From a virus: a DNA stretch of 22,818 bases. Position numbers and translations under genes: made by a program. Of this stretch, positions 2,120 through 20,131 are shown one piece after another (the stretch's first letter is position 1; every line of letters starts with the position of its first letter). The notes beneath the pieces are model-generated. The model had not been told where the DNA came from and searched no databases. It saw only the letters and a program-made list of their open reading frames with translations. The stretch spans positions 1 to 22,818 of IMG/VR virus record IMGVR_UViG_3300027791_001920. One strand, written 5' to 3'.

Positions 2120-3583
2120 TTAATTCCAGTCTACTTTTTCAATTGTAAAGGGGTACTCTGCTTCTTTGTAAAACTTTTTACGGTGAGTCAGATGTCGCTT
2201 CGCAAACTTGCATGTAGATGTCAAGTCCCATATTTGTACGAAGTCTTTGTCTTTAGCCTTTCTTACGCCTCTACCAATTGATTGGATTACCCGAACAAAA
2301 GACTTTCCAGGCTCGATAAGTACAAGATTAAAAATCCTAGGTATATTAAGGCCCACTGCCGCAACTCCGTAGGTTGCGATAATAACCTCATTAGTACCTT
2401 CTTTAATTGTATCATATGTTTCCTTGCGGTCTTTTACTTTAACACTTCCGCTTACAAAAGTGCTATTGGGTATTAGTTCTGCTAACAATTCTCCAGCGGA
2501 GATTCTGTCTACTAGTATAAGTGTGTTGCCTGATTGTTTTACATTGTTTAAAAATTTGCCTATGTATTCTATTCTTGCTTTGTTAGTAACAAGATATTTT
2601 AATTCTTCTTGATATCCTGCATGTGATACAGTATCTATTAATTGTACTACGTTAACATGACATTGAGATAGTACACCTTTGTCCTGCAATTCTTTTGCTG
2701 TAATGTTTCCAATTACAGGTCCAAGACTTGCGTGTATACTTTCAAACTCAAACTTCTCTTTAGGCACAGTGCCAGTTAGTCCCCAACGTATTGGAGCGTT
2801 ACGTAGGTTGCGAGTAAGCAAGTTCTTAAGAACTTCAGCTTTCGCTTGGTGTACTTCGTCGACGATTATAGTACTAACACCTTCAAGGAATTCTGCAAGG
2901 CTTAAAACTGCCGAGCCGTCCTTTGTTTTCTTGTCGAGTATATTTAAACTCTGCCAAGTACAAATAGTGTGAGTCTTACCTAATTGTTTTCGATCTCCAA
3001 AGTATACCCCTACGTCGAGCCCACAGTTAATATAGTCTTCTTCTGTTTGTTCTACTAACGATTTGTTAGGAACAATCACAAGACTCCTACCGTATGGCTC
3101 AGCTATATGTGACAGGGTTGCTGTCGTAATTGTTTTACCTGCACCAGTAGCAATCTGTTGCAAGCTCTGTGGATGACTTAAAAAGTTATTAATAGCTTCT
3201 ACTTGGTAGTCACGTAGAATAATTTCTGTACCTGCTACAGGATGTCCTTCAGGCCAACATACACCCTGGTCTGCCCAATAGCGTTCTGTAACTGGTGTAA
3301 AATCTAATTGTATAGGATGTCGCCTATCTTCAATGTCTGCAATTTGTACGTTATTCCTTTGTAGAACTTCGCTAACTGTATTAAGATGATTAACATATCC
3401 TGAACCACCAATACCAAAGAAAGCAACCTTGCCATCCCAACGTCCTAGTTTATATTGTGGCATGTACTTTGCATACGGTACTTCAAACTTTAATGCGTTT
3501 GCAAGTTTTCTCCGTACGTCAACGTCAAGACCTTCTATCTTTATGTTTACTTCATCTTCAATTATTAGTTTACATGTTGCCAT
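2120..3583 (-). CDS. uvsW: UvsW-like SF2 DNA/RNA helicase
   Basis: A 487-aa superfamily 2 helicase. Residues 1-80 match the UvsW N-terminal DNA-binding region, including Y-K-L-G-R-W-D-G-K at 44-52, which corresponds to the YGNWDG segment of T4 UvsW. Core motifs in order: RDYQ (Q-motif-like, 124-127), Walker A IATGAGKT (144-151), DEVH box (242-245), GLTGT (motif III-like, 268-272), a helicase C domain with GVAAVGLNIP, and motif VI QSIGRGVRKA near the end. In T4, UvsW unwinds branched DNA and R-loops and takes part in recombination-dependent replication. This protein is about 100 residues shorter than T4 UvsW. The ATG overlaps the upstream stop by one base (TAATG) and has no Shine-Dalgarno, so translation is probably coupled to the 413-aa gene. 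Confidence 0.95.
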   Translation of the reverse strand: MATCKLIIEDEVNIKIEGLDVDVRRKLANALKFEVPYAKYMPQYKLGRWDGKVAFFGIGGSGYVNHLNTVSEVLQRNNVQIADIEDRRHPIQLDFTPVTERYWADQGVCWPEGHPVAGTEIILRDYQVEAINNFLSHPQSLQQIATGAGKTITTATLSHIAEPYGRSLVIVPNKSLVEQTEEDYINCGLDVGVYFGDRKQLGKTHTICTWQSLNILDKKTKDGSAVLSLAEFLEGVSTIIVDEVHQAKAEVLKNLLTRNLRNAPIRWGLTGTVPKEKFEFESIHASLGPVIGNITAKELQDKGVLSQCHVNVVQLIDTVSHAGYQEELKYLVTNKARIEYIGKFLNNVKQSGNTLILVDRISAGELLAELIPNSTFVSGSVKVKDRKETYDTIKEGTNEVIIATYGVAAVGLNIPRIFNLVLIEPGKSFVRVIQSIGRGVRKAKDKDFVQIWDLTSTCKFAKRHLTHRKKFYKEAEYPFTIEKVDWN

Positions 3584-4824
3584 TATATTTTTTCAATTTT
3601 GCTTGTTAAGAACGGTGATACATCTGCATCATAGTACATAACAAGATCTAGTTCGTCTAAGTATGTTTGTATTTTATTCTTTCTTGAACATCCAAAAACA
3701 AGTGCAGACTTAGGCTGCCATTCCTGTTTTAATAATGTTTTTACTAACTTATCTTGTGTAGTATACACTATTTTTGAGTTAGTGTCAAGTGAATTATTTA
3801 AATTATTTTGTTTTATAAACTTATTAAAGTCTTTGTTGTCTTCGGTATCATTGTCTTTTCTATACAGCACACAGCTATCTTCATTAGAAAAAATATTACC
3901 AAACCCTTTATAAACTGTTGTTAGGTCGTCTAAATCTGTTTCACTATTTAAACATACTAATAGTGGATATCGATTTAGTTCTAGAATTGATTCTACAATA
4001 TGATTAACAGTAAACGACTCTGGTCTTATTAGTATTTGTGTTGATGTACGTCTTACTATACGCTGACTTAAAGTAGTAAGACTTTGTAAACTAGCATCTA
4101 AGTCCTCTTGATCAAAATGTTCAATGCCATATAATGCTTCTCTATCTTTATATAATGCAAGATTTTTTAGAGAGGGTTCATCACCAATATCAGTAATTAT
4201 ATAATCTACAGCTTTTGCATTTAAGTTTTTTAGTTTAAATCCATACACTCCGGGCAAGTAATCATTCTTATTGTTCATCATTATTTGTAACTTTTCATAT
4301 TGTGAGTTAACCTCGTCCTCGATAGTAAATTTTCTTTCTTTTAAAATTTCTATAATTTTATATAAGTTTAGTTCTGTATGTTTAAAATAATTTATTTTAT
4401 TGTCAGCGTCATTAATCTTTTCTTTTTCAATACCAGATGATCTTAATGATTCAAGTGCAGAAATTAAACGTTTATTAAATGTAAATCTTACAGCAATATA
4501 ACTAGTTCCGTCTATATTACGTATGCCAACCCACTTAGAACGATCAATTGTTCTAAGTTCCAATCTAAGATTATTGATACAATCTGTTACATTAATATCT
4601 AATTTTTCTAAAACTTCTTTGTATAATAGTATTTTACTTTTTACTAATTCGTACTGTCTATCAGTGTAAGCAATGCCTTTAAAAGATTGCTTAGTAAGAC
4701 TCATGATAAGATGCTTGTCATTATTATGTACATCATTACCCTTATAGCTGTGTGTAGGGTGGACGCCTGATAATATTTCTATGCAGCTTTCTGCGGTATT
4801 GTCGGGGACTTTATTTCTAAACAT
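3583..4824 (-). CDS. Uncharacterised 413-aa protein coupled to UvsW
   Basis: I do not recognise a named family. The N-terminal 60 residues contain a distinctive segment (YKGNDVHNNDKHLIMSL, then KGIAYTDRQYELVKSKI) that looks conserved in character. The middle is helical and charged. The C-terminus (SKIVYTTQDKLVKTLLKQEW, then SALVFGCSRKNKIQTYL) vaguely resembles a degenerate helicase C-terminal half, but no Walker A, Walker B or arginine-finger motif is present. Its stop overlaps the uvsW start in TAATG, and a consensus sigma70 promoter lies directly upstream with its -10 box only 6 nt from the ATG. No Shine-Dalgarno is visible. Coupling suggests a UvsW partner or a DNA-metabolism factor; this is inference. 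Confidence 0.75.
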   Translation of the reverse strand: MFRNKVPDNTAESCIEILSGVHPTHSYKGNDVHNNDKHLIMSLTKQSFKGIAYTDRQYELVKSKILLYKEVLEKLDINVTDCINNLRLELRTIDRSKWVGIRNIDGTSYIAVRFTFNKRLISALESLRSSGIEKEKINDADNKINYFKHTELNLYKIIEILKERKFTIEDEVNSQYEKLQIMMNNKNDYLPGVYGFKLKNLNAKAVDYIITDIGDEPSLKNLALYKDREALYGIEHFDQEDLDASLQSLTTLSQRIVRRTSTQILIRPESFTVNHIVESILELNRYPLLVCLNSETDLDDLTTVYKGFGNIFSNEDSCVLYRKDNDTEDNKDFNKFIKQNNLNNSLDTNSKIVYTTQDKLVKTLLKQEWQPKSALVFGCSRKNKIQTYLDELDLVMYYDADVSPFLTSKIEKI

Positions 4825-4830
4825 ACTAGT

Positions 4831-4858
4831 ATTATAGCAGGTTTATCTTAGATGTCAA
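4831..4858 (-). promoter_or_regulatory. Consensus sigma70 promoter (TTGACA-16-TATAAT)
   Basis: On the minus strand a perfect -35 TTGACA (4858-4853) is separated by 16 bp from a perfect -10 TATAAT (4836-4831). Transcription would start near 4824, which is the first base of the ATG of the 413-aa gene, so the mRNA would be leaderless or nearly so. The promoter overlaps the last codons of the glycan cassette, so the 413-aa gene and uvsW can be expressed independently of it, probably early by host polymerase. Confidence 0.8.
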
Positions 4859-5695
4859 GTGTTTATGTGGTATTCCTTGAGAAATTTCTTGGATTGTATA
4901 TTCTGTATGTGCGTAATCGTTTAGCCATTGTGTTCTATCACAGTACAAAGGAGTTTCAATATTGCGTAAGTTTTGTTCTGCTACATCAAATGCTAAACTA
5001 CTTGGGCCGGTAAATGCTGGTACGCCGTTGATTACACTATGTATGCCCGGGTTACTTGACCAACTAACTGTAGCCCATATGTTTTTAAATTTCATATCAA
5101 AGTCGTCATATGTTCCGGGTAGTTTAGATGGTTCTTGTCTGTATACATTCTTAAATTCTTTTTCAATATGTGTTAACGGACATCTTGGATGAGGCCTAAA
5201 TATAATCGGACGTTTCGTTTGTGCTCTTATGAATGTTATAGTATCGTATACCCAATTAGACATTAAGGGCATATCTTTCCATTGCAAACTTTTGTCATGT
5301 TGACCTGCTATAAGAATATATTCACCGTTGTAATTCCACGGAGATAATTTAAGACCTAGTTCATTAGCACGAGTATTGTCGTTGCTACTAGGACCAAAAT
5401 AACCATCTCGATTAATCCCATTGAGTCCTACTTTCCAAGTTGTTCCTCTTACTATTCCGCCTACTTCGAGGACGACGGTTGGTCTGGATTGTTGTATGTT
5501 TCTTTGCCATATAGCTTGGTTTCCAGCCATACGACCGTTCCAAAGTACGCTCCAAATAACATCAATCCCATCATCACCGTTAACGACAACATCATGGCCA
5601 AGAGCATTAGCACCAGCATGAAAGGCATCAAACACAGGCTTAGAATTGAGAGCACCAAATCTTTCATGTAAATTAAACTTCCTCTTTGTCTTCAT
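4832..5695 (-). CDS. Putative GT-B glycosyltransferase, KpsC/KpsS-like (paralogue 4)
   Basis: A 287-aa member of a four-copy family in this window. Shared blocks are GEYILIAGQ (124-132), a basic strand PIIFRPHPR (163-171), and a C-terminal nucleotide-sugar-type region SWSSNPGIHSVINGVPAF (211-228) followed by AFDVAEQNL (235-243). The signature ends in RTQWLNDYAHTEYTIQEI. The pattern N-S-x-x-G-x-x-x-x-x-x-G-x-P resembles capsule synthesis proteins of the KpsC/KpsS (Kdo transferase) type, but this assignment is inference. Compared with its paralogues, the terminal NGTAW motif is altered to QGIPH. The ATG at 5695 overlaps the preceding gene by 23 nt and the ribosome-binding site is weak. It is the last gene of the cassette; its stop overlaps the -10 box of the next promoter. 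Confidence 0.7.
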   Translation of the reverse strand: MKTKRKFNLHERFGALNSKPVFDAFHAGANALGHDVVVNGDDGIDVIWSVLWNGRMAGNQAIWQRNIQQSRPTVVLEVGGIVRGTTWKVGLNGINRDGYFGPSSNDNTRANELGLKLSPWNYNGEYILIAGQHDKSLQWKDMPLMSNWVYDTITFIRAQTKRPIIFRPHPRCPLTHIEKEFKNVYRQEPSKLPGTYDDFDMKFKNIWATVSWSSNPGIHSVINGVPAFTGPSSLAFDVAEQNLRNIETPLYCDRTQWLNDYAHTEYTIQEISQGIPHKHLTSKINLL

Positions 5696-6587
5696 ATTCT
5701 GTAAAGTCTACCCTCTCTTTTAGTCCTGCTTTAAAGTGACTTAGGTAAGGAGCAAGTAAACTTCTACTTATTGGTGTTTTATGTCGTCCAGTATTAAGAT
5801 TCATCATTTTATGACCCTTTGCTTCCATTAGTTCTACACATTTTCCATAAACTTCTCCGTCATAGAATCTGCGTAATTCATATTCTTCTGCTTTGTCGTT
5901 GTAGTAAATGTCTTTATATAAATCCATAAACTGCCCAAAACCGGGATGTTTCATATTTAGAATAAAAAATCCAGTTTCGCAACTGTGGTATTCCTTACCG
6001 TTCTTTTCATGCCATACACTAAAATGTGTACTTAGTACATCGTCTGGTGCAATTAATTCAGTTAACAATCTAGGAAAATTTTCTGTAAAAACTGCATCAG
6101 CATCTACCCATAATAATCTATCATGGTCTGAAAATTTCTCAGAAGCATCCATAATTGGAAATGCTTTTTTTGCAAACCCTTTAATTTTATGATTAGTATG
6201 TCTTCTTTGAAATTTTATAAATTCTTCTCCCAACATCCATCCAGCTGTTTTTACACCCTTTACTTTAGGATCAAATAACTGTTCGTTATAACAGTACATT
6301 GTACCCAAACCAGCAGCATGTCTTTTCCAACTTTGTAACATTGCTTTACCTGATTCAGTATAGTAACGTTTATCCATGCTTGTTATTAATGCAAATTTCT
6401 TACCGTTGGTCAATTCTAAATCCCTTGGTTCATCTGTTAATTTGTCTGCTTTAATCCTATTAAAGCGTCCTTTGTCAAAGTCTTCAATCGACACATGATT
6501 TTGTTGGCATTCAAAAACCTTTTCGCCGTGCTTAATAACATCACCCTTGGTATACAGCACACGTGGTTTCCAATTTACTATTTCCAT
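5673..6587 (-). CDS. GT-A glycosyltransferase with N-terminal CBM5/12-like module
   Basis: A 304-aa protein with two parts. Residues 4-33 show the spacing of a chitin-binding type 3 (CBM5/12-like) module: W6, Y12, G15-D16-V, F25-E-C27 and H31. From about residue 64 a GT-A-type glycosyltransferase domain begins (FALITSMDKRYY), with the metal-binding D-x-D motif at LLWVDADAV (D162, D164) and a later ETGFFILN segment typical of nucleotide-sugar transferases. It probably transfers a sugar from a nucleotide donor in the cytoplasm, with the module positioning a polysaccharide acceptor; donor and acceptor are unknown. The ATG overlaps the upstream stop by one base (TAATG), with GGAG 9 nt upstream. 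The 3' end overlaps the next gene by 23 nt. Confidence 0.75.
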   Translation of the reverse strand: MEIVNWKPRVLYTKGDVIKHGEKVFECQQNHVSIEDFDKGRFNRIKADKLTDEPRDLELTNGKKFALITSMDKRYYTESGKAMLQSWKRHAAGLGTMYCYNEQLFDPKVKGVKTAGWMLGEEFIKFQRRHTNHKIKGFAKKAFPIMDASEKFSDHDRLLWVDADAVFTENFPRLLTELIAPDDVLSTHFSVWHEKNGKEYHSCETGFFILNMKHPGFGQFMDLYKDIYYNDKAEEYELRRFYDGEVYGKCVELMEAKGHKMMNLNTGRHKTPISRSLLAPYLSHFKAGLKERVDFTEYEDKEEV

Positions 6588-7423
6588 TATGTTTTACTCC
6601 AGTTATGTGAGTCTTTCCAGTACTCTTCTGTTCTTGTTATACGTAGGTCACTTGCTTTACTTTTTCCTAATGCTTTTCGACCACCTTTTAAATGATCTAA
6701 GTATGCTCCCCATACGCTATTAATTAAAGGATGACCTTCACCTCTAATAATCCCTTGCCCCCAATTTAGGCAATGTGGATTAAGTTTTTTTCTTACTTCT
6801 TCGAACACAAAGCTATCATGCCATTCTGACATTTGGAATATGCCGTTTTCGGCTTCGTCGTAAACACGCTGAAATTCTTTTAAGAATGTTTGTCCCATTT
6901 TATTACGTAGGTTAATACTATATAATCCGCACTCGGGCCACTTGTTATCTCTTCCAACATAACATAAGTCATATGCAGGTAATACTAATTCATTGATTCG
7001 TTTCATTTCAATAGGACTATGGCATATTGTATCTGCATCCATCCACATGAGTTTGTCAGTGTTACATATTGTAGCACAATGAAATATACTATATACCTTG
7101 TGTGCAAATCTTACTGCGTCCCATTTGAATCCTTTGCCTGAATCTCTACGTAAACTACGTACTGGATCTTGGCTTACATCACCATTTGCTTTAGGAACAT
7201 CTTTCCATTTATTCTTAAATGCAACTAGTTCAGGACTTGAAGCATGTAAGTCTTTAACAATTATATTAGGTGCTGTAACTACCGGTGTACAGTCTTCAGC
7301 GTATGCATATAGTGTTATTTCTTTTGGCCACATCTCAGCAAAACTATCTAGCATTTTTTGTCCGTACTTGTCTAGTCCTTCTTTGTGAAATGTAGTTACT
7401 ACACTTATTGATTGATCTATCAT
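6587..7423 (-). CDS. GT-A type glycosyltransferase
   Basis: A 278-aa protein with a GT-A Rossmann-like start (SISVVTTFHKEGLDKYGQKM) and the D-x-D metal/nucleotide-sugar motif in KLMWMDADTI (D129, D131). A region CGLYSINLRNKMGQTFL follows, similar in position to the acceptor-side segment of GT8-like enzymes. It resembles its two DxD neighbours in architecture but lacks the carbohydrate-binding N-terminus of the next gene. It starts in an ATGA overlap with the upstream stop and has AAGGA 7 nt upstream, so the start is well supported; its stop overlaps the next ATG in TAATG. Sugar specificity cannot be inferred. Confidence 0.8.
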   Translation of the reverse strand: MIDQSISVVTTFHKEGLDKYGQKMLDSFAEMWPKEITLYAYAEDCTPVVTAPNIIVKDLHASSPELVAFKNKWKDVPKANGDVSQDPVRSLRRDSGKGFKWDAVRFAHKVYSIFHCATICNTDKLMWMDADTICHSPIEMKRINELVLPAYDLCYVGRDNKWPECGLYSINLRNKMGQTFLKEFQRVYDEAENGIFQMSEWHDSFVFEEVRKKLNPHCLNWGQGIIRGEGHPLINSVWGAYLDHLKGGRKALGKSKASDLRITRTEEYWKDSHNWSKT

Positions 7424-8331
7424 ATGTAATCCTTAATAATTTTCCATGCTGTGCCATTACGTAAATCATCAAAATTAAAATGACACATTGCTAATTTTTC
7501 TAACCAGGGCTGTCTATCAAATGTTTTTGGATCATTGATTGTCGATATATCAGTGTTTGCTACATCAAATGCTTGGCTTGATTTTGGATCAGGATCCATA
7601 ACATAAACTGGTATCCCCTCAACAGCTGCAGCTACACCCGGACTACTATTGTAAGTTACTACAGCATGACAGTCAACAAAGTCTTGTTGTATAGTTGGAT
7701 TTGTACTAATACGCACTCCGGGTTCGTTTAGTCTTAGATATTCTTTTGCTTTACCATCGCCTGGATGTGCTCTAACAACAATTTTTCTATTAGTATGCTT
7801 TTTAATTTGTGCAATCATATTAGGCAACCATTGCATTACTGGTAATTGTTTCATACTCCAACCGCCGTTGCGTTGTAAACAAATTAATATATGTCTACCT
7901 TCCTTGCGCCACGGTTGTACATTTATATTAAGATCATTTCTTAATTTATTCCATCTAGCAGGATCTATATTATCTGTAAAATATGTTCCAGTTTGAGGGA
8001 ATATATCGTTCAAACTAAATCTTAAATAATGATTTGTATTATTTGGATCTTTCCATAAAAATAAATTACTATCAATTGCAAGTACATGTTTTTGTGCTAA
8101 ACGTTGTTGCCTAATTATTTCTCTTCTAAACATTAAGTGTGGTGTACGTCCACTGTTCTCATGAACCCATCCTTGCATTACGGCAAGGTCGCATGCACTA
8201 TGTTGGGGTTCTTTTACTTCTATACTTTGAGCACCTGTTACTCCCATGTGGAAGAAACGTAGTACATCAACCTTCTCTGCATTATTATTTTTACTAGGAA
8301 TGCCTGCGTAAAATACTTTAACTGTTTTCAT
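7420..8331 (-). CDS. Putative GT-B glycosyltransferase, KpsC/KpsS-like (paralogue 3)
   Basis: A 303-aa member of the four-copy family. Family blocks are GRHILICLQ (145-153), RKIVVRAHPGDG (182-193), the putative donor-binding region AVVTYNSSPGVAAAVEGIPV (223-242) with QAFDVANTDI (253-262), and the C-terminal signature RQPWLEKLAM...RNGTAW (273-296). The H-P after the basic strand and the N-S-S-x-G motif resemble capsule Kdo-transferase-like proteins; the donor is not known. The start overlaps the upstream gene by 14 nt and has AGGA 7 nt upstream. The stop lies in an ATGA overlap with the next gene. Its N-terminal 130 residues differ strongly from those of the paralogues, which suggests different acceptors. 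Confidence 0.75.
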   Translation of the reverse strand: MKTVKVFYAGIPSKNNNAEKVDVLRFFHMGVTGAQSIEVKEPQHSACDLAVMQGWVHENSGRTPHLMFRREIIRQQRLAQKHVLAIDSNLFLWKDPNNTNHYLRFSLNDIFPQTGTYFTDNIDPARWNKLRNDLNINVQPWRKEGRHILICLQRNGGWSMKQLPVMQWLPNMIAQIKKHTNRKIVVRAHPGDGKAKEYLRLNEPGVRISTNPTIQQDFVDCHAVVTYNSSPGVAAAVEGIPVYVMDPDPKSSQAFDVANTDISTINDPKTFDRQPWLEKLAMCHFNFDDLRNGTAWKIIKDYI

Positions 8332-9094
8332 TTAATATCCTATATGCTGTGCCGTTTCTTAATTCTTCAATATGAAACTGTCCATATGCTAAGTGGCATG
8401 CCCATTTTCGTATCTTAGTTTCATCTTGTTTAGTTGGAGTTTCTAATAAACTTAAATCTTTATCACACACAGGATCAGCTGCTGTTGGTGCTGTAGTAAA
8501 TGCAGGCACTCCCCACATTACACTTTCCACAGCCGCAATACTTTGAAATGTTACAAGTGCATGGCAGTTACTTAAAGCATCAAATATACTATGTCCGTGT
8601 ACACGTTGACTGCGTTTAGTTTTTTCTCTTACTATTATCGGCCTATCTGTGTGATTTTTTATTTCTCTAATAGTGCGATGTTTCCAACTTTCTAAATCTA
8701 ATTTATAAAATTTACAAGGCTTTTCGCTTGGAACAACTAATAATATATGTTTGCCTGCTTTACGAGGTTGTAATTTTAAATCTAACTTGCGCCATCTATC
8801 ATCAGGCCTATCTATTATTGTATTGTGTTGCACATCATTTTTTACTATCCTATGATATAATTTCCAACCATTTGGATTAGTCGGCCCTGGATAGTTACCA
8901 ACGTATCCACTATCCATATAATAAAAATCTATACTGTCTCTATAACAACGATCAATCAGTTTGCGCTTTGCCATACTCCGAATTAGTATAGGTCCGTTTT
9001 CAAAGTTGTAATTGTAATCGTGTATAGGTAAGCCTGCGCCTTGTGCAAACATATTAATGTATTCGTCAGTAAGATTCTTACTTAAACATATCAT
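8318..9094 (-). CDS. Putative GT-B glycosyltransferase, KpsC/KpsS-like (paralogue 2)
   Basis: A 258-aa protein when started at the ATG at 9094. The frame is open to 9145, but that longer start would overlap the upstream gene by 68 nt. The shorter start has GGAAAG upstream, overlaps by only 17 nt, and begins with MICLSKNL. Family blocks are GKHILLVVPS, RPIIVREKTK (the usual H-P is replaced), ALVTFQSIAAVESVMWGVPAF, and a complete C-terminal WACHLAYGQFHIEELRNGTAY. The lost H-P after the basic strand and F-Q-S in place of Y-N-S suggest altered catalysis or specificity. Residues corresponding to the first 50 or so of the paralogues look shortened. Confidence 0.7.
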   Translation of the reverse strand: MICLSKNLTDEYINMFAQGAGLPIHDYNYNFENGPILIRSMAKRKLIDRCYRDSIDFYYMDSGYVGNYPGPTNPNGWKLYHRIVKNDVQHNTIIDRPDDRWRKLDLKLQPRKAGKHILLVVPSEKPCKFYKLDLESWKHRTIREIKNHTDRPIIVREKTKRSQRVHGHSIFDALSNCHALVTFQSIAAVESVMWGVPAFTTAPTAADPVCDKDLSLLETPTKQDETKIRKWACHLAYGQFHIEELRNGTAYRILNENS

Positions 9095-9755
9095 ACAGTT
9101 CGTCTTTCCAGTCTTGATGATAATCACAGTTACGGTAGTTTTCAAACCACGGACCGCCTTCTGTGTAGTGTATTAATTTTGGTGTGCCATCCTTTGGCTC
9201 TTTATAGTGTCCTACTAACCAATTCCATTCTGGAGACAATTCTCCTACTTCTTTATCTTTTAACCAACTAAAGCGATGTAAATAAGCACCTGTTATTTTA
9301 GGATCGTTTACTAAGTTCTGTGTAAGTTTAGCATTGCTTTTATGACCACAGTTAAACAACATTACACTTGACCAGTTCTTGCGTGGATATATAGTTTGTG
9401 CTTGCCCGTCCATCTTTGTAGTAGCACTCGGCGAATAATCATGTTGCACACACATTACCGCATACTTGTCATCTGCTTGATCAAATAGTTGCTTAATGTC
9501 TGTTTTTAAGATCATGTCACAATCCATAAACAATGCCCACCCGTTGAAGTTACAAAGCTCGGGTATTAAGAATCGAGTAAAAGTAAATTCAGTACTTGCC
9601 AGTTTGTCAATGCCTCTAGTGTACCAACCTGCGTCACGTAATTCCTGTTGCTTCAACGGCCTTACGCTTACGTCTGGTTGCTTGCTTTCAATACTATGTT
9701 TACATACTTGGTAAGCAATATCTTCTCTGGTATCATAACCTACAAATACTTTCAT
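9078..9755 (-). CDS. GT8-like DxD glycosyltransferase
   Basis: A 225-aa protein starting MKVFVGYDTREDIAYQV, typical of GT8-like enzymes in which the YDTRE region binds the nucleotide. STEFTFTRFLIPEL follows (54-67), then the D-x-D motif in ALFMDCDMI (D78, D80), NWSSVMLFNC (substrate-side strand), and a C-terminal HYTEGGPWF that carries the metal-binding histidine of this fold. Of the three GT-A genes this is the most canonical and complete. The start is in an ATGA overlap with the nucleotidyltransferase-cupin gene; only a weak purine stretch precedes it, so re-initiation is likely. It is predicted to be a soluble retaining glycosyltransferase; donor sugar unknown. Confidence 0.85.
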   Translation of the reverse strand: MKVFVGYDTREDIAYQVCKHSIESKQPDVSVRPLKQQELRDAGWYTRGIDKLASTEFTFTRFLIPELCNFNGWALFMDCDMILKTDIKQLFDQADDKYAVMCVQHDYSPSATTKMDGQAQTIYPRKNWSSVMLFNCGHKSNAKLTQNLVNDPKITGAYLHRFSWLKDKEVGELSPEWNWLVGHYKEPKDGTPKLIHYTEGGPWFENYRNCDYHQDWKDELYDMFK

Positions 9756-10516
9756 ACGTCTTTTCTTTCTATATCGTCTTCAATGCAGTTATTACCGTAT
9801 TGTATTTCTACTAATTTTAAATCTGTATCGTGTTCATTAGCAAGTTGATGCCATTGTCCTACGGGTATATGCAAAGACTTGTGTTGTTCAAATACGCCGT
9901 GTAGGTCAACATCTGAACTACTATCTAGAGTGTATACTGTTGCAGTACCTTCAGCAACAAACCAGTGTTCTGAACGCTCTTGGTGTCGTTGCATTGATAA
10001 TTTCTCTCCTGGTGGCACTGCTAATTCCTTAACTTTTGTGTGGTTATTATATTCGTGTATCACTCTATAGTACCCCCATGTACGCTCTGTCTTTGGTGCT
10101 TTCCACTCTTCTAATATCCAGCTGCTACTGTTAGCTTTGTTTTCTCCACCGACACCAAATACAAACTCTACACCTTCAACTGCCATCTCAGGAATGTTTT
10201 TTTCTGTCCTGTCGCCGCCGTTGGCAAATATTATTTTATCGTTGGGATAGTGTGCTTTAACTTGTTTTATAAAATTTATAGCAGAATCATCATCGTCCAT
10301 AAATGTAAAAACTTCGTCTACCATTTGTAAATTATTTACAATACATAGGCGTTCATTCCAGGGCATAAATGCTTTGCCCTTTTTTCGCTCTAGCCATTCA
10401 TCTGAATTTAGGCCAACGATTAATCGATCGCCGAGCAGCTTTGCTTCTTTAAAATATTTAATATGACCGCTGTGTAGTGGGTCAAATCCACCTGTGACTA
10501 ATACTAATCTGTTCAT
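9752..10516 (-). CDS. Nucleotidyltransferase-cupin fusion (HldE/TagD-like plus mannose-6-P isomerase type II-like)
   Basis: A 254-aa bifunctional-looking protein. Residues 1-135 form a cytidylyltransferase-like domain: VTGGFDPLHSGHIKYF with the H-x-G-H motif (H15, G17, H18), GDRLIVGLNSD (29-39), and an S-S-S motif near 130-132 where the family has its second nucleotide-binding loop. This resembles the adenylyltransferase half of HldE or glycerol-3-phosphate cytidylyltransferase. Residues 145-245 are a cupin of the mannose-6-phosphate isomerase type II kind (RTWGYYRVI; H178, H184, H223). It probably activates a sugar- or polyol-phosphate and may bind or isomerise it. No kinase domain is present. 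The gene starts 15 nt after the previous stop, lacks a Shine-Dalgarno and has a CATAAATA box just upstream. Confidence 0.85.
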   Translation of the reverse strand: MNRLVLVTGGFDPLHSGHIKYFKEAKLLGDRLIVGLNSDEWLERKKGKAFMPWNERLCIVNNLQMVDEVFTFMDDDDSAINFIKQVKAHYPNDKIIFANGGDRTEKNIPEMAVEGVEFVFGVGGENKANSSSWILEEWKAPKTERTWGYYRVIHEYNNHTKVKELAVPPGEKLSMQRHQERSEHWFVAEGTATVYTLDSSSDVDLHGVFEQHKSLHIPVGQWHQLANEHDTDLKLVEIQYGNNCIEDDIERKDV

Positions 10517-10521
10517 GTAGA

Positions 10522-10529
10522 TATTTATG
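10522..10529 (-). promoter_or_regulatory. Putative late promoter box CATAAATA
   Basis: Minus-strand CATAAATA fits the NATAAATA late-promoter form of T4-like phages. It lies in the only real gap of the glycan cassette, 5 nt before the ATG at 10516, which lacks a ribosome-binding site. Such short AT-rich boxes arise by chance in this composition; position and spacing are the main support. Confidence 0.4.
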
Positions 10530-10531
10530 TG

Positions 10532-11293
10532 CTACTTTAATAGTGTTAGGAACTTTTGGTAGAATTCGTTATTAAGTTCTCTACACTCTTGTAGAAATCC
10601 GTCAACAGCATTTTTCTTTTTTGTATATTTGTCATTTATGCTGTTAATAAAATGTGGTTGATGTTTCATGTGGTTAAATTTTACACTCCAACTAGCAACT
10701 TGCACATTTTTACCTAGTAGTTGAGCCCAATATGCTCCGTGGTAACTATCAGTAACTATTGTTTTTGCACTTCCTAAAAATTCAATTACTTTATCAAAAT
10801 CCATTTCATTATTTTTCATGTAAGGAAGTGTTTCAGGGTTTGTAAATTTACTTTTAAATGCATGTGTAAAATATACTACTTCGCGTTTAGATTCATACTC
10901 TTTATCAAATGCAGGATGCAAACAACTTACACAAGGCAAATAATATTTTTCATATCCTTCTATCCAATCTCTAATACCAATTAACGTAGCATCTTTAATC
11001 CATTCAGGATAGTACACATCGCCTTTTGTTTTAGCAATATGTTTTTTACCAAAATTATGTCCTATACCCCATAGCGTTGTAGTTGCAGGATCTTTTGACA
11101 TTAATGTTTGTATATGATTACTGAATTTCTTATGTATCAATCCACCGCCGCCAACAATTAAGTTATTGTTTTCAATAGGATAATCGTTATACATTAGTTC
11201 ACCTGATGTACAATTCATATCAAAATAACGACTAGGATTGCAATAATAATCGCCGACGTTATTTTTTACTTTTCTATGTACTTCGTATATCAT
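10532..11293 (-). CDS. Polysaccharide pyruvyl transferase-like protein
   Basis: A 253-aa protein with the landmarks of the polysaccharide pyruvyl transferase family: NNVGD near residues 11-15, NLIVGGGGLI at 44-53, TLWGIGHN, a TLIGIRDW strand, and the C-terminal TDSYHGAYWAQLLGK. Known members transfer pyruvate from phosphoenolpyruvate onto sugars (ketal formation) and give negative charge; related folds act as glycosyltransferases or sulfhydrylation enzymes. At 253 aa it is shorter than many members (often 300-400 aa), mainly in the linker between the two halves. The start is in an ATGA overlap with the FkbM gene, has no Shine-Dalgarno, and is probably translated by coupling. The family assignment is strong; the exact reaction is inferred. 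Confidence 0.85.
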   Translation of the reverse strand: MIYEVHRKVKNNVGDYYCNPSRYFDMNCTSGELMYNDYPIENNNLIVGGGGLIHKKFSNHIQTLMSKDPATTTLWGIGHNFGKKHIAKTKGDVYYPEWIKDATLIGIRDWIEGYEKYYLPCVSCLHPAFDKEYESKREVVYFTHAFKSKFTNPETLPYMKNNEMDFDKVIEFLGSAKTIVTDSYHGAYWAQLLGKNVQVASWSVKFNHMKHQPHFINSINDKYTKKKNAVDGFLQECRELNNEFYQKFLTLLK

Positions 11294-11943
11294 TTTGGCT
11301 TAGCTATAAAGTTATGGTATAAACTACTGTTAGATGCCGTGTGCTCTTGCAACTGTTCTTTAGTACATATATTTAAATCTAAATCTAATATATTGTAATT
11401 TAAGTTGTTAAAAAAGTCAAATATTTCGCCACTACCATAGTCATAATTTTCCATGTGTACATCAGCACATTCAAAATAAACAAATGGTTTAGAATTTTTA
11501 ATAGTTTTTTCAGCACCTCTAATTGTTTTTAGTTCATTGCCTTCAACATCTATTTTTATTAGTCCTACATTTTTTAATTTATAACTATCTAATGTTTTTA
11601 CAGGAACCTTTATTGTTCTATATTTTCCGCCTTCACGTTGCTGTGTAAGACCGCTCCATCCGCCTAATTCAAGATCAATATGAAAGTCTAATGTTGCTGA
11701 TACATCACTTAATGCTATACCATAAATAGTAACCCGATCATTTTTTCTATGTTTATTATCTAACCATTCATAAATGTTTGGCGTTGGTTCAAATAAGTGC
11801 GCTGGAGAATCCGGAAAATAATATGCAATTTTTTTAAACCAATGTCCTTTTCTTGCACCTATATCAACTACAGTACGTTGTGGTGTAAGATTTTGTTGTA
11901 ACCACGGAAAGATAATAGCATCTTCAGCTCTTTTAAAATTCAT
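11290..11943 (-). CDS. FkbM-family methyltransferase
   Basis: A 217-aa SAM-dependent O-methyltransferase. Motif I is TVVDIGARKGHW (about 25-36), followed by HLFEPTPNIYEWL, the strand-2 acidic motif, and the FkbM-typical IKIDVEGNELKTIRGA segment, then PFVYFECAD. FkbM enzymes methylate hydroxyls on sugars, polyketides and other small molecules; a sugar substrate fits this neighbourhood. A longer start at 11955 exists, but the ATG at 11943 is preferred. It forms the ATGA overlap seen repeatedly in this operon and has GGA 7 nt upstream, while the upstream ATG has no ribosome-binding site. The stop overlaps the pyruvyl transferase-like start. Confidence 0.9.
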   Translation of the reverse strand: MNFKRAEDAIIFPWLQQNLTPQRTVVDIGARKGHWFKKIAYYFPDSPAHLFEPTPNIYEWLDNKHRKNDRVTIYGIALSDVSATLDFHIDLELGGWSGLTQQREGGKYRTIKVPVKTLDSYKLKNVGLIKIDVEGNELKTIRGAEKTIKNSKPFVYFECADVHMENYDYGSGEIFDFFNNLNYNILDLDLNICTKEQLQEHTASNSSLYHNFIAKPK

Positions 11944-12434
11944 TTGCAATTCCATATCAAGTTAGTTTTGTGTTGGTGCATATGTACAACTTTAAATATT
12001 TTTTTGAATTGTACAATGTCATCAGGGGCAAATCTATGATGCCAAGTTTGTTTAAGACCTTTTTTTCCTTTTGGAGAATGATGTGTTAGTATAATCCAAC
12101 GGTCTGCAAAAGGTTTATATGCTTTTAAAACTTCCATAGGATTTTCTAAATATTCTAATACACCTATTGCTAAACCTAAATTAAATTTTGCATCTAGTGG
12201 TACAACTTCAGTGTTTAAATTAGTCACAATATCAGCTGTGTCAACTCTGTCTAATCCTACGTATCTTGTAACATTTACACCTTTCTTTGGTATAAAATAA
12301 TTTAGTATATCTTTATCGCCACAGCCTAGGTCAAGAACACTTCCGTTAAATCCTCTAATTAGTTTTGTTATTTCTTTGTTTCTTACTCGCCACACATTCT
12401 TATATGTATACGAAATAACTTTTTCATCTTCCAT
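11940..12434 (-). CDS. Class I SAM-dependent methyltransferase
   Basis: A 164-aa compact methyltransferase: motif I VLDLGCGDKDIL (33-44), an acidic residue in YVGLDRVD (strand 2), a motif IV-like LGLAIGVLEYLENPMEVL, and WIILTHHSPKG. There is little beyond the SAM-binding core, so the substrate-binding part is small. It starts 11 nt inside the end of the first transferase gene, with AAGGA 7 nt upstream, and ends in the ATGA overlap with the FkbM gene. Next to FkbM it is probably a sugar or glycan methyltransferase, but a metabolite or protein substrate cannot be excluded. Confidence 0.85.
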   Translation of the reverse strand: MEDEKVISYTYKNVWRVRNKEITKLIRGFNGSVLDLGCGDKDILNYFIPKKGVNVTRYVGLDRVDTADIVTNLNTEVVPLDAKFNLGLAIGVLEYLENPMEVLKAYKPFADRWIILTHHSPKGKKGLKQTWHHRFAPDDIVQFKKIFKVVHMHQHKTNLIWNCK

Positions 12435-13341
12435 GTATGTATCCTTGCTTTAGGTGTTCCCATGCTGTACCGTTAGCAATTTCATCTAAAGTCCATTGTG
12501 TGTACGCCATATCATATAACCATTGCGTTCTATTTATCTGGTAGTTTAATGACTCTAAATTTTCTATGTTATTACTAATATCCCAGGTCATACTTTCGTT
12601 TGACAATGCAATCACTGGCTTACCTAAACACACAGCTTCAACTAATGCATTTGTATTATAGCCTAGAACAACTTGACTGTTAACTATTTCGTCTTCTAAA
12701 CCCTTGCCACCTTCATGCTGTCTTCTATTTTTAAATGTTTTACTAAGTTCGATTGAAGGGTCGTTACGTCTTGCTATATTCTGTGCTACCCAAGGACCTG
12801 TTGTTAGATGAGGGCGTACTACAATCTTTCTATCACTGTACTTTCTTATGTTTGTAATAAGATCATTAAACCATTCTTCGTAAGTATTCCACTTATCATA
12901 AAGACTATTTAATGTAGTGTCTCTACGATTTTGTAAACAAATAAGAATGTATTCGCCTTGTGTGTAAGGCTTAACTTTTATTTTTTGGTCTTTACAAAGT
13001 TGCTCCCATCTATCACTAGGAGAATTACTATTATAAAATTTACCTGTGTTTAAGAAATGCTCCCAGCCAACTCTATAGCGCCAACTGTTTACATTACCTT
13101 CAATATAACTATTTTTTCTAAATGGAGTTGATTCACATACTAGTTTTGGTTTATTAGTACTATCAATATATGCAAATGCATGATCTATTTTTTTAAATCT
13201 ACCTTGTACATTAAGTTGCCAATAAACATCAGCATCGTATTGTTTGTCTTTTTCAAACTTTACTAAATGCCAATTTGGTAGATTAAATTTTATTGGAAAA
13301 CTTTTTGCTCGTGAATGATGGCTAAACGCAATTATTTTCAT
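12424..13341 (-). CDS. Putative GT-B glycosyltransferase, KpsC/KpsS-like (paralogue 1)
   Basis: A 305-aa protein and the first gene of the glycan cassette. Family blocks are GEYILICLQNRRD (129-141), RKIVVRPHL (171-179), VVLGYNTNALVEAVCLGKPV (224-243), WDISNNIENL, and the C-terminal signature RTQWLYDMAYTQWTLDEIANGTAW (271-294), the most complete copy in the window. The Y-N-T/N-S plus G-x-P pattern is like that of KpsC/KpsS capsule transferases; the activity is inferred. An in-frame stop directly precedes the ATG at 13341, so the start is fixed. It has only a distant AGG upstream, and its ATG overlaps the stop of an 18-codon ORF (ATGA), which may supply ribosomes. Confidence 0.75.
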   Translation of the reverse strand: MKIIAFSHHSRAKSFPIKFNLPNWHLVKFEKDKQYDADVYWQLNVQGRFKKIDHAFAYIDSTNKPKLVCESTPFRKNSYIEGNVNSWRYRVGWEHFLNTGKFYNSNSPSDRWEQLCKDQKIKVKPYTQGEYILICLQNRRDTTLNSLYDKWNTYEEWFNDLITNIRKYSDRKIVVRPHLTTGPWVAQNIARRNDPSIELSKTFKNRRQHEGGKGLEDEIVNSQVVLGYNTNALVEAVCLGKPVIALSNESMTWDISNNIENLESLNYQINRTQWLYDMAYTQWTLDEIANGTAWEHLKQGYIHGR

Positions 13342-13394
13342 CTATCAAAACATAACCTGTATTCACGTAAAAAGTTTTGTTTCATATTACTCAT
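13338..13394 (-). CDS. Tiny 18-codon ORF bridging uvsY and the glycan cassette
   Basis: The ORF encodes 18 residues beginning MSNMKQNF and ending in CFDR. Its ATG overlaps the uvsY stop (ATGA) and its TGA overlaps the first glycosyltransferase ATG (ATGA). A GGAGG motif about 10 nt upstream lies inside the uvsY end. The fit at both ends suggests a leader or coupling peptide that keeps ribosomes moving across an otherwise untranslated 49-nt gap. It may equally be a remnant of a longer gene or chance; no family can be named. Confidence 0.4.
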   Translation of the reverse strand: MSNMKQNFLREYRLCFDR

Positions 13395-13846
13395 AAACTT
13401 GCATCCTCCATACCTGCTACTCTAAGTTTAACAACATTAGTAATCTGCCATTGTTTCTGATCAAGTCCTTTTAACAAGCCTAACCATTTGTTACGCATTA
13501 GTGCAAATTCGTTGATAATCTTTTCGTAGTCAACAACATCTGCCTCACCGTCTACGTATTTTTCAACGTCACGGCTTGACAGAGCTCGTTGGTAGTTTTC
13601 AAGATACTTCTTAAAGTACGAGCTACGCAATCTACGCAGCTCGATATTTAAGTAGTGTAGTATAGCTTCGATCTCTTGAAGTTGGTTAAATCGTTGTTCA
13701 ACAATGCCAGGCATATTTGCCGCGGCACGTTCAACATTACCTTTCAGCTTTACATCTAAACGGCCTTCAATTAGCTCGTCTTCGAAGTACTGTACAGCAT
13801 TGGGTATTTTAGATATATCCCGCGATACTTCACTATACCATCCCAT
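13391..13846 (-). CDS. uvsY: UvsY-like recombination mediator
   Basis: A 151-aa, highly helical, charged protein in the position and size range of UvsY (T4 UvsY is 137 aa). Residues about 45-95 form a long helical segment with heptad-like hydrophobics (QEIEAILHYLNIELRRL), and the C-terminus has the compact LMRNKWLGLLKGLDQKQWQI block. Known UvsY loads UvsX onto gp32-coated single-stranded DNA; here it follows gp32, uvsX and a small ORF in the same run. Direct similarity to T4 UvsY is weak by eye, so the call leans on context and resemblance to the marine-phage form. The start overlaps the previous stop (TAATG). Confidence 0.75.
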   Translation of the reverse strand: MGWYSEVSRDISKIPNAVQYFEDELIEGRLDVKLKGNVERAAANMPGIVEQRFNQLQEIEAILHYLNIELRRLRSSYFKKYLENYQRALSSRDVEKYVDGEADVVDYEKIINEFALMRNKWLGLLKGLDQKQWQITNVVKLRVAGMEDASL

Positions 13847-14085: not shown

Positions 14086-15171
14086 CTACTCCTCGATTAG
14101 TTCTTCAATATTTTCGTCAATTAAATCTGTATCAACATCGCTATTTACCACAGGCTTGATTTTCTCGTTATATTCTAACATGATCTGATCAAGTTTGCCA
14201 CCAAGCATCCAAGCCTTGCGATATTCAAGAACTTCTTCGCCTGCTAGATTAATGTACTTGAGTCGATTGCCTTGCTTAACTAACAAGTTCTTCTTCTCAA
14301 ATAATTCAACTAAACCACTGTATGGATTCATACCAGTTTCATAAGGAATCTTAACCTGCACACCTTCGAAAGGTTTTGCATAGCGTGTCTTCATTACTTT
14401 ACAACCAGCACGTATACCCATAACTTCTGAGATCTTGTTGCCGTCTTCATCTTCTTTTAGCTTCATCTTCTTCATTGCAACAACAATACTTGATGCATAG
14501 ATAAAGCCTGAGCCACCACTGATCTTATCATCTGGATCAAACATATCCTGCGATGCATAAGTGTGGTTAGTACATACCAAACCTACGTTAAGCGAGCCAA
14601 TCATATTAACAGTATTACGGACTAATGAAGTTAGTGCTTTAGGCTTACGACCCATATCACCTTTCATGTCACCCTTGTTAAACTGATCAACGTCAGTAGG
14701 TGTTAGTAACATACCCAACGAGTCAACTACAAACAATACTTTAGGGCGATCTTCTTCGTCCATAGCACGATAGTCTGTAATAAATGTTGATATAGTTTTT
14801 GCTACATCGTCAATCATTGACATGTTTAGCTTGAGAAGTTTCTCTGCGCTAGTGTCAACTTGTAATGCTTGTAGCCAGCTTTCGTCAAGTGCGTTCTCTG
14901 AGTCAATTAAGACTACAAATATGCCTTGATCTTGTGCGTGTTTTACAATGTTACCTGAACAGAAATAACTTTTACCTGCTCCTGATTCACCTGCAAACAC
15001 AGTAACCTTACCTAGCGGAACACCTTTGTGAAAGTCTCCTGAGATAAGATAGTTTAGTGCATATGATCCTGTACTGATCCAATCAGTAGGATCGTTAAAT
15101 CCAGTACTCATGCCTGAGATACTCTTAGTCAAGTCCTTACGGAACTTACTAACGTCAAATGATTTAGCCAT
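14086..15171 (-). CDS. uvsX: UvsX RecA-like recombinase
   Basis: A 361-aa recombinase of the RecA/Rad51 superfamily. The Walker A motif is GESGAGKS (61-68) and Walker B is VLFVVD (145-150). A likely DNA-binding loop 2 region lies near the DDKISGGSGF segment, and a catalytic glutamate position follows Walker A in LIDSENALDE. T4 UvsX (391 aa) forms filaments on single-stranded DNA for strand exchange and recombination-dependent replication, with UvsY and gp32 as partners; all three are adjacent here. The start at 15171 has a strong AAGGAG 5-6 nt upstream, although a small hairpin overlaps it. The C-terminus is acidic. Confidence 0.97.
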   Translation of the reverse strand: MAKSFDVSKFRKDLTKSISGMSTGFNDPTDWISTGSYALNYLISGDFHKGVPLGKVTVFAGESGAGKSYFCSGNIVKHAQDQGIFVVLIDSENALDESWLQALQVDTSAEKLLKLNMSMIDDVAKTISTFITDYRAMDEEDRPKVLFVVDSLGMLLTPTDVDQFNKGDMKGDMGRKPKALTSLVRNTVNMIGSLNVGLVCTNHTYASQDMFDPDDKISGGSGFIYASSIVVAMKKMKLKEDEDGNKISEVMGIRAGCKVMKTRYAKPFEGVQVKIPYETGMNPYSGLVELFEKKNLLVKQGNRLKYINLAGEEVLEYRKAWMLGGKLDQIMLEYNEKIKPVVNSDVDTDLIDENIEELIEE

Positions 15172-18527: not shown

Positions 18528-18539
18528 ATAGTATTTATC
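18528..18539 (-). promoter_or_regulatory. T4-type late promoter upstream of the LysM gene
   Basis: Minus-strand GATAAATACTAT matches the extended T4 late -10 consensus TATAAATACTAT at every position except the first and fits the NATAAATA form. It overlaps the terminase stop. Its 8-bp core ends 7 nt before the ATG at 18524, so transcription would start at or next to the start codon, which has no SD. Confidence 0.7.
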
Positions 18540-20120: not shown

Positions 20121-20131
20121 AAGTATTTAAC
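20121..20131 (-). promoter_or_regulatory. Weak late-promoter-like box upstream of terminase
   Basis: Minus-strand GTTAAATACTT shares AAATACT with the T4 late consensus, but the bases before it differ. It sits 5 nt before the terminase ATG in an 8-nt intergenic gap. It is recorded mainly because spacing and an SD-less start repeat the arrangement seen at 18528 and 10522. Confidence 0.3.

Follow-up and report, generated by a model that had tools for sequence, protein, structure and literature searches.

The stretch analyzed here (the window) is a 22,818-base virus fragment from IMG/VR, in which a cassette of glycan-synthesis genes is located between uvsY and uvsW of a T4-like phage core. The gene order in the window is terL, a structural gene, SSB, uvsX, a 78-amino-acid open reading frame (ORF), uvsY, eleven cassette genes, orf413 and uvsW. 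One flank of the island is uvsY (13391-13846, minus strand; phrog_231, 3.7e-16) and the other is the helicase gene uvsW (2120-3583, minus strand; phrog_16, 2e-77); the recombinase gene uvsX (14086-15171, minus strand; phrog_97, 3e-68) belongs to the phage core. Positions 4832-13341 are filled by eleven minus-strand ORFs of 164-305 amino acids, neighbours being separated, or overlapping, by a few bases. An earlier note, made from the sequence alone, had described such a cassette between uvsY and the orf413/uvsW unit, and the ORFs and the PHROG matches of the flanks bear this out. Compared with the closest syntenic relative (contig L173), every cassette gene showed a dN/dS of 0.02-0.14; therefore, these are real genes under purifying selection.

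Seven of the eleven genes are of glycosyltransferase (GT) type: one GT8, two GT-A (GTa1 and GTa2) and four GT-B paralogues (GTb1 to GTb4). All lie on the minus strand. Next to uvsY is GTb4 (12424-13341, 305 amino acids), followed by MT23 (11940-12434, 164 amino acids), a class I S-adenosylmethionine-dependent methyltransferase (PF13489, Methyltransf_23, 5e-5, below the Pfam cut-off) likely involved in sugar O-methylation, by an FkbM-type O-methyltransferase (11290-11955, 221 amino acids; PF05050, 1.4e-18), and by PyrT (10532-11293, 253 amino acids). PyrT is polysaccharide pyruvyl transferase-like: its PF04230 match reached only 0.029, and the motifs NxGD and T(D/N)SYHG (also given as TDSYHG) are conserved in the alignment of relatives. 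NTcup (9752-10516, 254 amino acids) joins a cytidylyltransferase-like part (GGFDPLHSGH; PF01467, CTP_transf_like, 1.3e-13) to a mannose-6-phosphate-isomerase-type cupin (PF01050, 5.6e-24), and its nearest PDB matches are glycerol-3-phosphate and ethanolamine-phosphate cytidylyltransferases. Then come GT8 (9078-9755, 225 amino acids; GT-A, GT8-like; PF01501, 8.5e-8; phrog_28018, 3e-51) and GTb3 (8318-9145; PF20471, DUF6716, 0.0016), which has 275 amino acids from the listed TTG at 9145, although an ATG at 9094 agrees better with relatives. The remaining genes are GTb2 (7420-8331, 303 amino acids), GTa2 (6587-7423, 278 amino acids; DxD and a C-terminal HxKGxxK motif), GTa1 (5673-6587, 304 amino acids; a GTa2 paralogue by alignment) and GTb1 (4832-5695, 287 amino acids). 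GTa1 has an N-terminal, chitin-binding-type CBM5/12 module (PF02839, 2.3e-6), which is unusual for a glycosyltransferase. No membrane span was found in any cassette protein, and the cassette contains no lipid-carrier, export or ligase gene.

No confident Pfam GT match was obtained for GTa1, GTa2 or GTb1 to GTb4, and the folds of the two families were assigned via structure prediction of one member each. The AlphaFold2 model of GTa2 (pLDDT 92.2) showed a GT-A fold, with alpha-1,3-galactosyltransferase and related enzymes as the best PDB matches (E 4e-8). For the GTb2 model (pLDDT 95.9), the first 22 PDB matches were all retaining transferases of 3-deoxy-D-manno-oct-2-ulosonic acid (Kdo), namely the beta-Kdo transferases KpsC, WbbB and KrkA (E 5.5e-8 to 5e-5). 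Both are GT folds, that of GTb2 being the modified GT-B type of KpsC, WbbB and KrkA; non-GT structures, which the earlier note had named as a refuting result, were not obtained. Pfam, motifs and predicted folds thus confirm the gene types listed in the earlier note (seven GT-type genes, a nucleotidyltransferase-cupin, a pyruvyl transferase-like gene and two methyltransferases), and its proposal that these are glycan enzymes, enough to build an oligosaccharide, is supported. The island very probably makes a glycan. In the BFVD database, the GTb2 model is also close to 'capsule polysaccharide biosynthesis' proteins of Tetraselmis virus 1, an algal giant virus (TM ~0.75, E 5e-16), and it has another close structural match in Caulobacter phage CcrColossus.

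KpsC (GT107), WbbB (GT99) and KrkA (GT140) share the motif QXXXD, in which Gln binds the Kdo carboxylate and Asp is the nucleophile; the (K/R)XHP motif of retaining Kdo transferases binds cytidine monophosphate (CMP) (PMC12887879, PMC10148158, PMC9587256). We read the corresponding columns from an alignment of 408 distinct GTb sequences, which replaced a regular-expression count with GTa false positives. In GTb4, Q, D, R and H of QXXXD and RXH were each present in 48/48 sequences (Q137-x3-D141 and R176-x-H178 in the window), and Pro followed RXH in 44/48, with Leu in the window. Glu70 (47/48) and Arg75 (44/48) of GTb4 have the same sequence spacing as E158 and R163 of WbbB, so that Glu70 is a candidate for the general base. 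GTb1 had Q in 104/104, Ser at the Asp position in 104/104 and RXHP in 104/104; GTb2 had Q in 123/123, Gly at the Asp position in 121/123 and RXHP in 123/123. In GTb3, which has neither QXXXD nor HP, the Asp position was hydrophobic, Pro or Ser, and RX(K/R) was found at the place of (K/R)XHP. Judged from these columns, GTb4 keeps the full Kdo-transferase signature, GTb1 and GTb2 its donor (CMP-binding) half and GTb3 little of it. By these motifs and a GT-B fold inferred from the GTb2 model, GTb4 is listed as retaining beta-Kdo-transferase type.

The alignment profiles of GTb4 and GTb1 matched no Kdo transferase among PDB sequences, and with a profile of mixed GTb sequences WbbB came up at no better than E 0.4. 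Because the profile searches gave no match or one at noise level, the likeness to Kdo transferases rests on fold and motif: the predicted fold of GTb2, QXXXD, RXH and a possible Glu base in GTb4, and RXHP in GTb1 and GTb2 are shared with KpsC, WbbB and KrkA, whereas sequence similarity to them is at noise level and the role of the GTb enzymes is a predicted one. The island probably uses Kdo or a related CMP-sugar.

To place the phage, we compared its core genes with those of known phages. UvsX and UvsW of the window are closest to those of Atu_ph07, Phosso, Vibrio 2.275.O and the CBB/121Q group, with UvsX 59-66% identical to that of the Atu_ph07/Rak2-type jumbo group. On this sequence evidence, the window's phage is T4-like, as proposed before, but it sits on the jumbo branch, nearer to Atu_ph07/Rak2-type phages than to T4 or cyanophages. 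The largest relatives with the cassette, of 236,751 and 335,231 bp, are above the >200-kb genome criterion for jumbo phages; the window itself is only a 22.8-kb fragment. Megablast of the window against the 'phages' collection gave no match, and a scan of the window found no tRNA gene. Moraphages, an aquatic jumbo lineage with core GTs (PMC12619734), were considered as the same clade and rejected, being outside the T4 group. Host assignment from metagenome-assembled genome (MAG) bins was dropped as contradictory: the large phage contigs PBPT01000016.1 (L167, 335 kb) and PBPT01000082.1 (L168, 153 kb) are binned in a Neomarinimicrobiota MAG, and similar phage contigs in MAGs of Verrucomicrobia, Pelagibacter, Rickettsiales and Pacearchaeota.

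Loci were collected by searches with uvsX, NTcup and GTb1. A six-gene core, beginning with NTcup and ending with GTb1, is retained in the order NTcup, GT8, GTb3, GTb2, GTa2, GTb1 (three GT-B and one GT-A). All six families were present at the uvsY-uvsW site in 73 of the 89 loci reaching both genes, a count biased towards cassette carriers, and five families in 8 more; the median uvsY-uvsW interval was 9.4 kb. At least two core families were found in 26/35 loci recruited by uvsX only and having at least 4.5 kb after uvsY. UvsX identity among cassette carriers was 71-96%. The genes in relatives therefore form one block at a fixed site and are not scattered single genes, the outcome that the earlier note had set against its own proposal. 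The island is best read as a vertically inherited feature of a widespread clade of uncultured aquatic phages rather than a one-off.

Between uvsY and NTcup, gene content changes from locus to locus and includes FkbM, methyltransferases, GTb4, PyrT and proteins of unknown function. L173 has the gene order of the window plus one extra methyltransferase ahead. PyrT co-occurs with GTa1 (5/6 versus 4/61, p=7e-5), which suggests that the two act on the same residue. In seven loci (L136, L137, L139, L142, L146, L149 and L166) the glycan block is turned around as a whole with respect to uvsX/uvsY, and 5/7 of these have TATAAATA 5 nt before the ATG of NTcup. GTa2 is often inverted alone. A phase-variable switch was considered for it, and since no convincing flanking inverted repeats were found in L055 or L090, a fixed inversion is more likely.

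A T4-type late promoter core, CATAAATA, is located at 10522-10529 (minus strand), 5 nt before the ATG of NTcup, whose start in the window reads CATAAATATCTAC-ATG. TAAATA cores are also found at 18532-18537 (minus strand), before the structural gene (16404-18524), and at 20124-20129 (minus strand), 5 nt before the ATG of terL (18538-20118). Among NTcup relatives, TAAATA stood before the ATG in 93 of 148, at a distance given as exactly 5 nt and, in the count over gene families, as 4-7 nt; at 4-7 nt before the ATG (mostly 5), it was also found in 23/53 terL, 32/65 s706 and 3/128 GT8 genes and in none of uvsX, uvsY and uvsW. The late consensus is NATAAATA in S-PM2 and TATAAATA in T4 (PMC2984593), and the TATAAATA-like motif before NTcup, terL and s706 matches this T4/S-PM2 late promoter. 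The starts of these three genes have almost no Shine-Dalgarno-like sequence. A gp55-type late sigma gene (phrog_12791, 2.8e-78) is present on the cassette-bearing 335-kb contig, and in the 236-kb relative the tail tube, virion structural and short tail fibre genes carry the same late motif. Internal cassette genes mostly lack it. GTa2, however, has its own late motif in 36/58 cases when inverted versus 5/68 otherwise, and GTb1 in 34/57 cases after an opposite-strand gene versus 1/45 otherwise. The best reading of these motifs is that the conserved core is expressed late in infection. Given the T4 spacing, late mRNAs of the clade would start at the ATG and look leaderless. In the 236-kb relative, the late motif also precedes a gene for a 685-amino-acid CHASE2-adenylate/guanylate cyclase fusion (L264:13242-15299, plus strand; PF05226, 2.8e-38; PF00211, 1.2e-15).

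Directly before orf413 (3583-4824, minus strand) there is a sigma70-like promoter, TTGACA-16-TATAAT (4831-4858, minus strand), which was found in 54/83 relatives and, for every other gene family, in no more than 4; therefore, orf413, uvsW and the following genes form a separate unit. Because of this promoter and its lack of GT similarity, orf413 was rejected as a cassette member and stands outside the cassette count. It encodes a conserved phage protein of unknown function that aligns with its relatives and gave no match in PDB, Pfam and PHROG searches. The sigma70-like promoter sits relative to the ATG like the late-promoter cores.

Shortly beyond uvsW, most relatives carry KdsA and KdsB, in a conserved run of orf170, cupin, YhhQ, KdsA and KdsB genes. 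KdsA of L173 scored above two equivalog cut-offs (336 versus 242 bits; 325 versus 314), and the best matches of its KdsB were all Kdo cytidylyltransferases, yet below the cut-off. A gene of the CMP-sugar synthetase family (PF02348, CTP_transf_3), located in this run, was present in 8/18 IMG/VR contigs tested and in the 335-kb contig; the cultured jumbo relatives Atu_ph07, Phosso, Vibrio 2.275.O and CBB had none. KdsB was present in 20 of 24 nonredundant contigs that extend 5.5 kb or more past uvsW, including all 10 with a QXXXD-type GTb4. KdsA and KdsB are predicted to follow the uvsW cluster in the window's phage as well. Studies of marine viromes have already counted Kds genes among the auxiliary genes (PMC10653327, PMC5332604). 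Among the stronger matches in cultured phages with named annotation, KdsA was found in S-SCSM2R (40% identity) and in two Acinetobacter phage MD-2021a records of unknown source. In one relative, a uroporphyrinogen-decarboxylase family gene (L219:15557-16534, plus strand; PF01208, 2.4e-61) is located between KdsA and KdsB.

Taken together, our preferred but tentative reading, to which we give slightly less than an even chance, is that the island is a vertically kept late pathway for one Kdo-containing oligosaccharide with a virion protein as its acceptor. KdsA and KdsB would supply CMP-Kdo, and NTcup one further activated unit. GT8 and GTa may lay down the first hexoses, and Kdo would be attached by the GTb enzymes. 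GTb4 would use double displacement as in KpsC and WbbB, and GTb1 and GTb2, because the nucleophile is missing, some other route. PyrT, FkbM and MT23 would cap or decorate the chain, giving particles with a constant glycan core and strain-specific outer groups. The conserved core, the changing outer modifiers, late timing, the phage's own donor supply and the absence of membrane components agree with a glycan attached to an acceptor that is itself a conserved part of the phage, in the manner of chloroviruses. A bolder version, in which the clade coats its virions with a Kdo glycan via a self-contained late pathway, the QXXXS/QXXXG GTb enzymes form a new catalytic class and the late transcripts are leaderless, is in our view unlikely to hold as a whole.

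Several points weigh against this reading. TM-scores of the GTb2 model against Kdo transferases are only ~0.4-0.54, and GTb1, GTb2 and GTb3 lack QXXXD and are not classed as retaining beta-Kdo transferases. The usual place of KdsA/KdsB lies past base 1 of the window, and neither gene is seen in the window. The four contigs without KdsB are also without GTb4, and the association between GTb4 and KdsB (p=0.11) is not significant alone. The variable half, to which GTb4 belongs, runs into uvsY (median gap -4) and lacks the late motif in 127/146 cases; its genes, between uvsY and NTcup, may be transcribed with the uvsX unit. KdsA/KdsB genes of relatives have the late motif in 0/85 cases. With the late motif mostly absent from the variable half and wholly absent from KdsA/KdsB, the pathway is not late in all its parts. 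The acceptor step is one that we only infer, and the virion is favoured slightly over the host envelope. Kdo is a hallmark of the lipopolysaccharide (LPS) inner core and of group 2 capsule. LPS-core GTs are likewise without membrane spans, so the missing flippase and polymerase genes are compatible with an acceptor in the host envelope.

A Kdo pathway acting on the lipid A-core or capsule linker of an infected Gram-negative cell is accordingly a serious alternative, which we hold possible though on balance doubtful. Its purpose would be to block rival phages or to keep progeny off debris, the lock-out idea put forward for marine phages, cyanophages among them. In its favour, LPS and capsule synthesis are where Kdo and KdsA/KdsB have their place, the glycans on which KpsC and WbbB act are those of the cell surface, Kdo chemistry fits a late envelope change equally well, and large cyanophage clusters have been interpreted in this way (PMC7824862, PMC2984593). 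The GT core, however, is retained in phages whose UvsX identities span 71-96% and which come from several habitats, despite differences between host cores, and the cassette has no lipid-carrier, export or ligase gene. The core also has a late promoter, but blocks to superinfection usually act early.

DNA modification, in which the GTs would glycosylate a hydroxymethylated base as in T4, is very improbable. Phage GTs near uvsX do resemble the T4 arrangement, where beta-gt adjoins uvsX, but the core promoter is late, and base glycosylation as known involves no KdsA/KdsB, pyruvyl or FkbM genes. A PF00303 search of the relatives' phage records, which are fragments, found no dCMP hydroxymethylase; its matches were a true ThyA (PFNIASY) in the 236-kb record and, in G001, a gene on an 11.6-kb contig separate from the 335-kb phage contig. 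A PF11440 (AGT) search also gave no match, with a control equally silent, so it is uninformative. Of the three roles offered in the earlier note, virion decoration and host-envelope remodelling are the two serious candidates, and modification of DNA is unlikely. We give hardly any credence to a secreted or secondary-metabolite glycan, or to cargo 'stuffer' DNA without a selected product. Stuffer DNA has been proposed for cyanophage LPS clusters (PMC3037559), but dN/dS values of 0.02-0.14, invariant catalytic columns and retained late promoters show selection here.

Large phage glycan clusters are already known, contrary to the earlier statement that phages described so far have single glycosyltransferases. 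In P-SSM2, 24 LPS genes are divided between two clusters (PMC2984593), the main one of 15 genes (PMC7824862), and S-SSM7 has a large LPS gene cluster (PMC3037559). As in the window, these are large clusters of GT and sugar-modifying genes in T4-like marine phages, with nucleotidyltransferase and cupin parts and variable content. They are located near hli03 or phoH and tRNAs and include epimerases and PfkB kinases (PMC3037559, PMC7824862), whereas the window cassette is at the uvsY-uvsW site with a core conserved across a clade, and no epimerase/dehydratase or PfkB sugar kinase was found among its eleven genes. Only the N-terminal half of NTcup matched S-SSM7 and P-TIM68, and searches with GT8, GTb1 and GTb4 found no match in P-SSM2 or S-SSM7.

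Pelagibacter phage Mosig EXVC030M has FkbM-type methyltransferase, methyltransferase, GTa2-, GT8- and GTb3-like genes in one run (Mosig_00183-00191), but this cluster adjoins RuvC and nrdB, its GT8 is 49% identical, no NTcup was seen there, and it has no CTP_transf_3 gene. In the cultured Synechococcus phage S-SCSM2R, a GT8 homologue (49%) lies two genes from KdsB and KdsA, the latter only 40% identical, in another neighbourhood with PstS, PsbA and PsbD. Atu_ph07, Phosso, Vibrio 2.275.O and CBB share the order terL, structural gene, SSB, uvsX, uvsY and, further on, uvsW; their uvsY-uvsW intervals are 0.9-2.8 kb in the last three and, going by our own ORF calls, ~6 kb in Atu_ph07, and no GT was found between uvsY and uvsW in any of the four. 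Virus-encoded GTs glycosylate the capsid protein of chloroviruses, with a conserved glycan core and variable parts (PMC7826918), and, as summarized in PMC12619734, a virion protein of mycobacteriophages. The GT families of both differ from those of the cassette. We know of no report of Kdo in either kind of virion glycosylation.

As far as checked, the following are new: a uvsY-uvsW site that stays fixed throughout a large uncultured clade, a set of Kdo-transferase-like GTs in which some paralogues have no nucleophile, the accompanying KdsA/KdsB genes, and the evidence for a late promoter. Phage glycan clusters have so far been read as LPS lock-out or stuffer DNA without means to decide; here, with a signal for timing, a predicted donor sugar and a conserved core, it can be tested directly whether the product is on the particle or on the cell. 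Should it be on the particle, phages would be covering themselves with a sugar typical of the bacterial envelope, a matter of importance for host recognition, grazing and immune recognition. In the GTb paralogues there may be a natural series of a retaining double-displacement enzyme losing its nucleophile, and many 'hypothetical' ORFs of marine viromes gain a predicted function.

Downstream of uvsW, the window contains orf170, a cupin gene, a YhhQ-type transporter gene and a methyltransferase gene. The transporter, of a type handling vitamin or queuosine precursors, is conserved beyond uvsW in relatives; its gene and the cupin gene overlap (548-1318 and 1233-1592), and its GTG start is probably placed too early.

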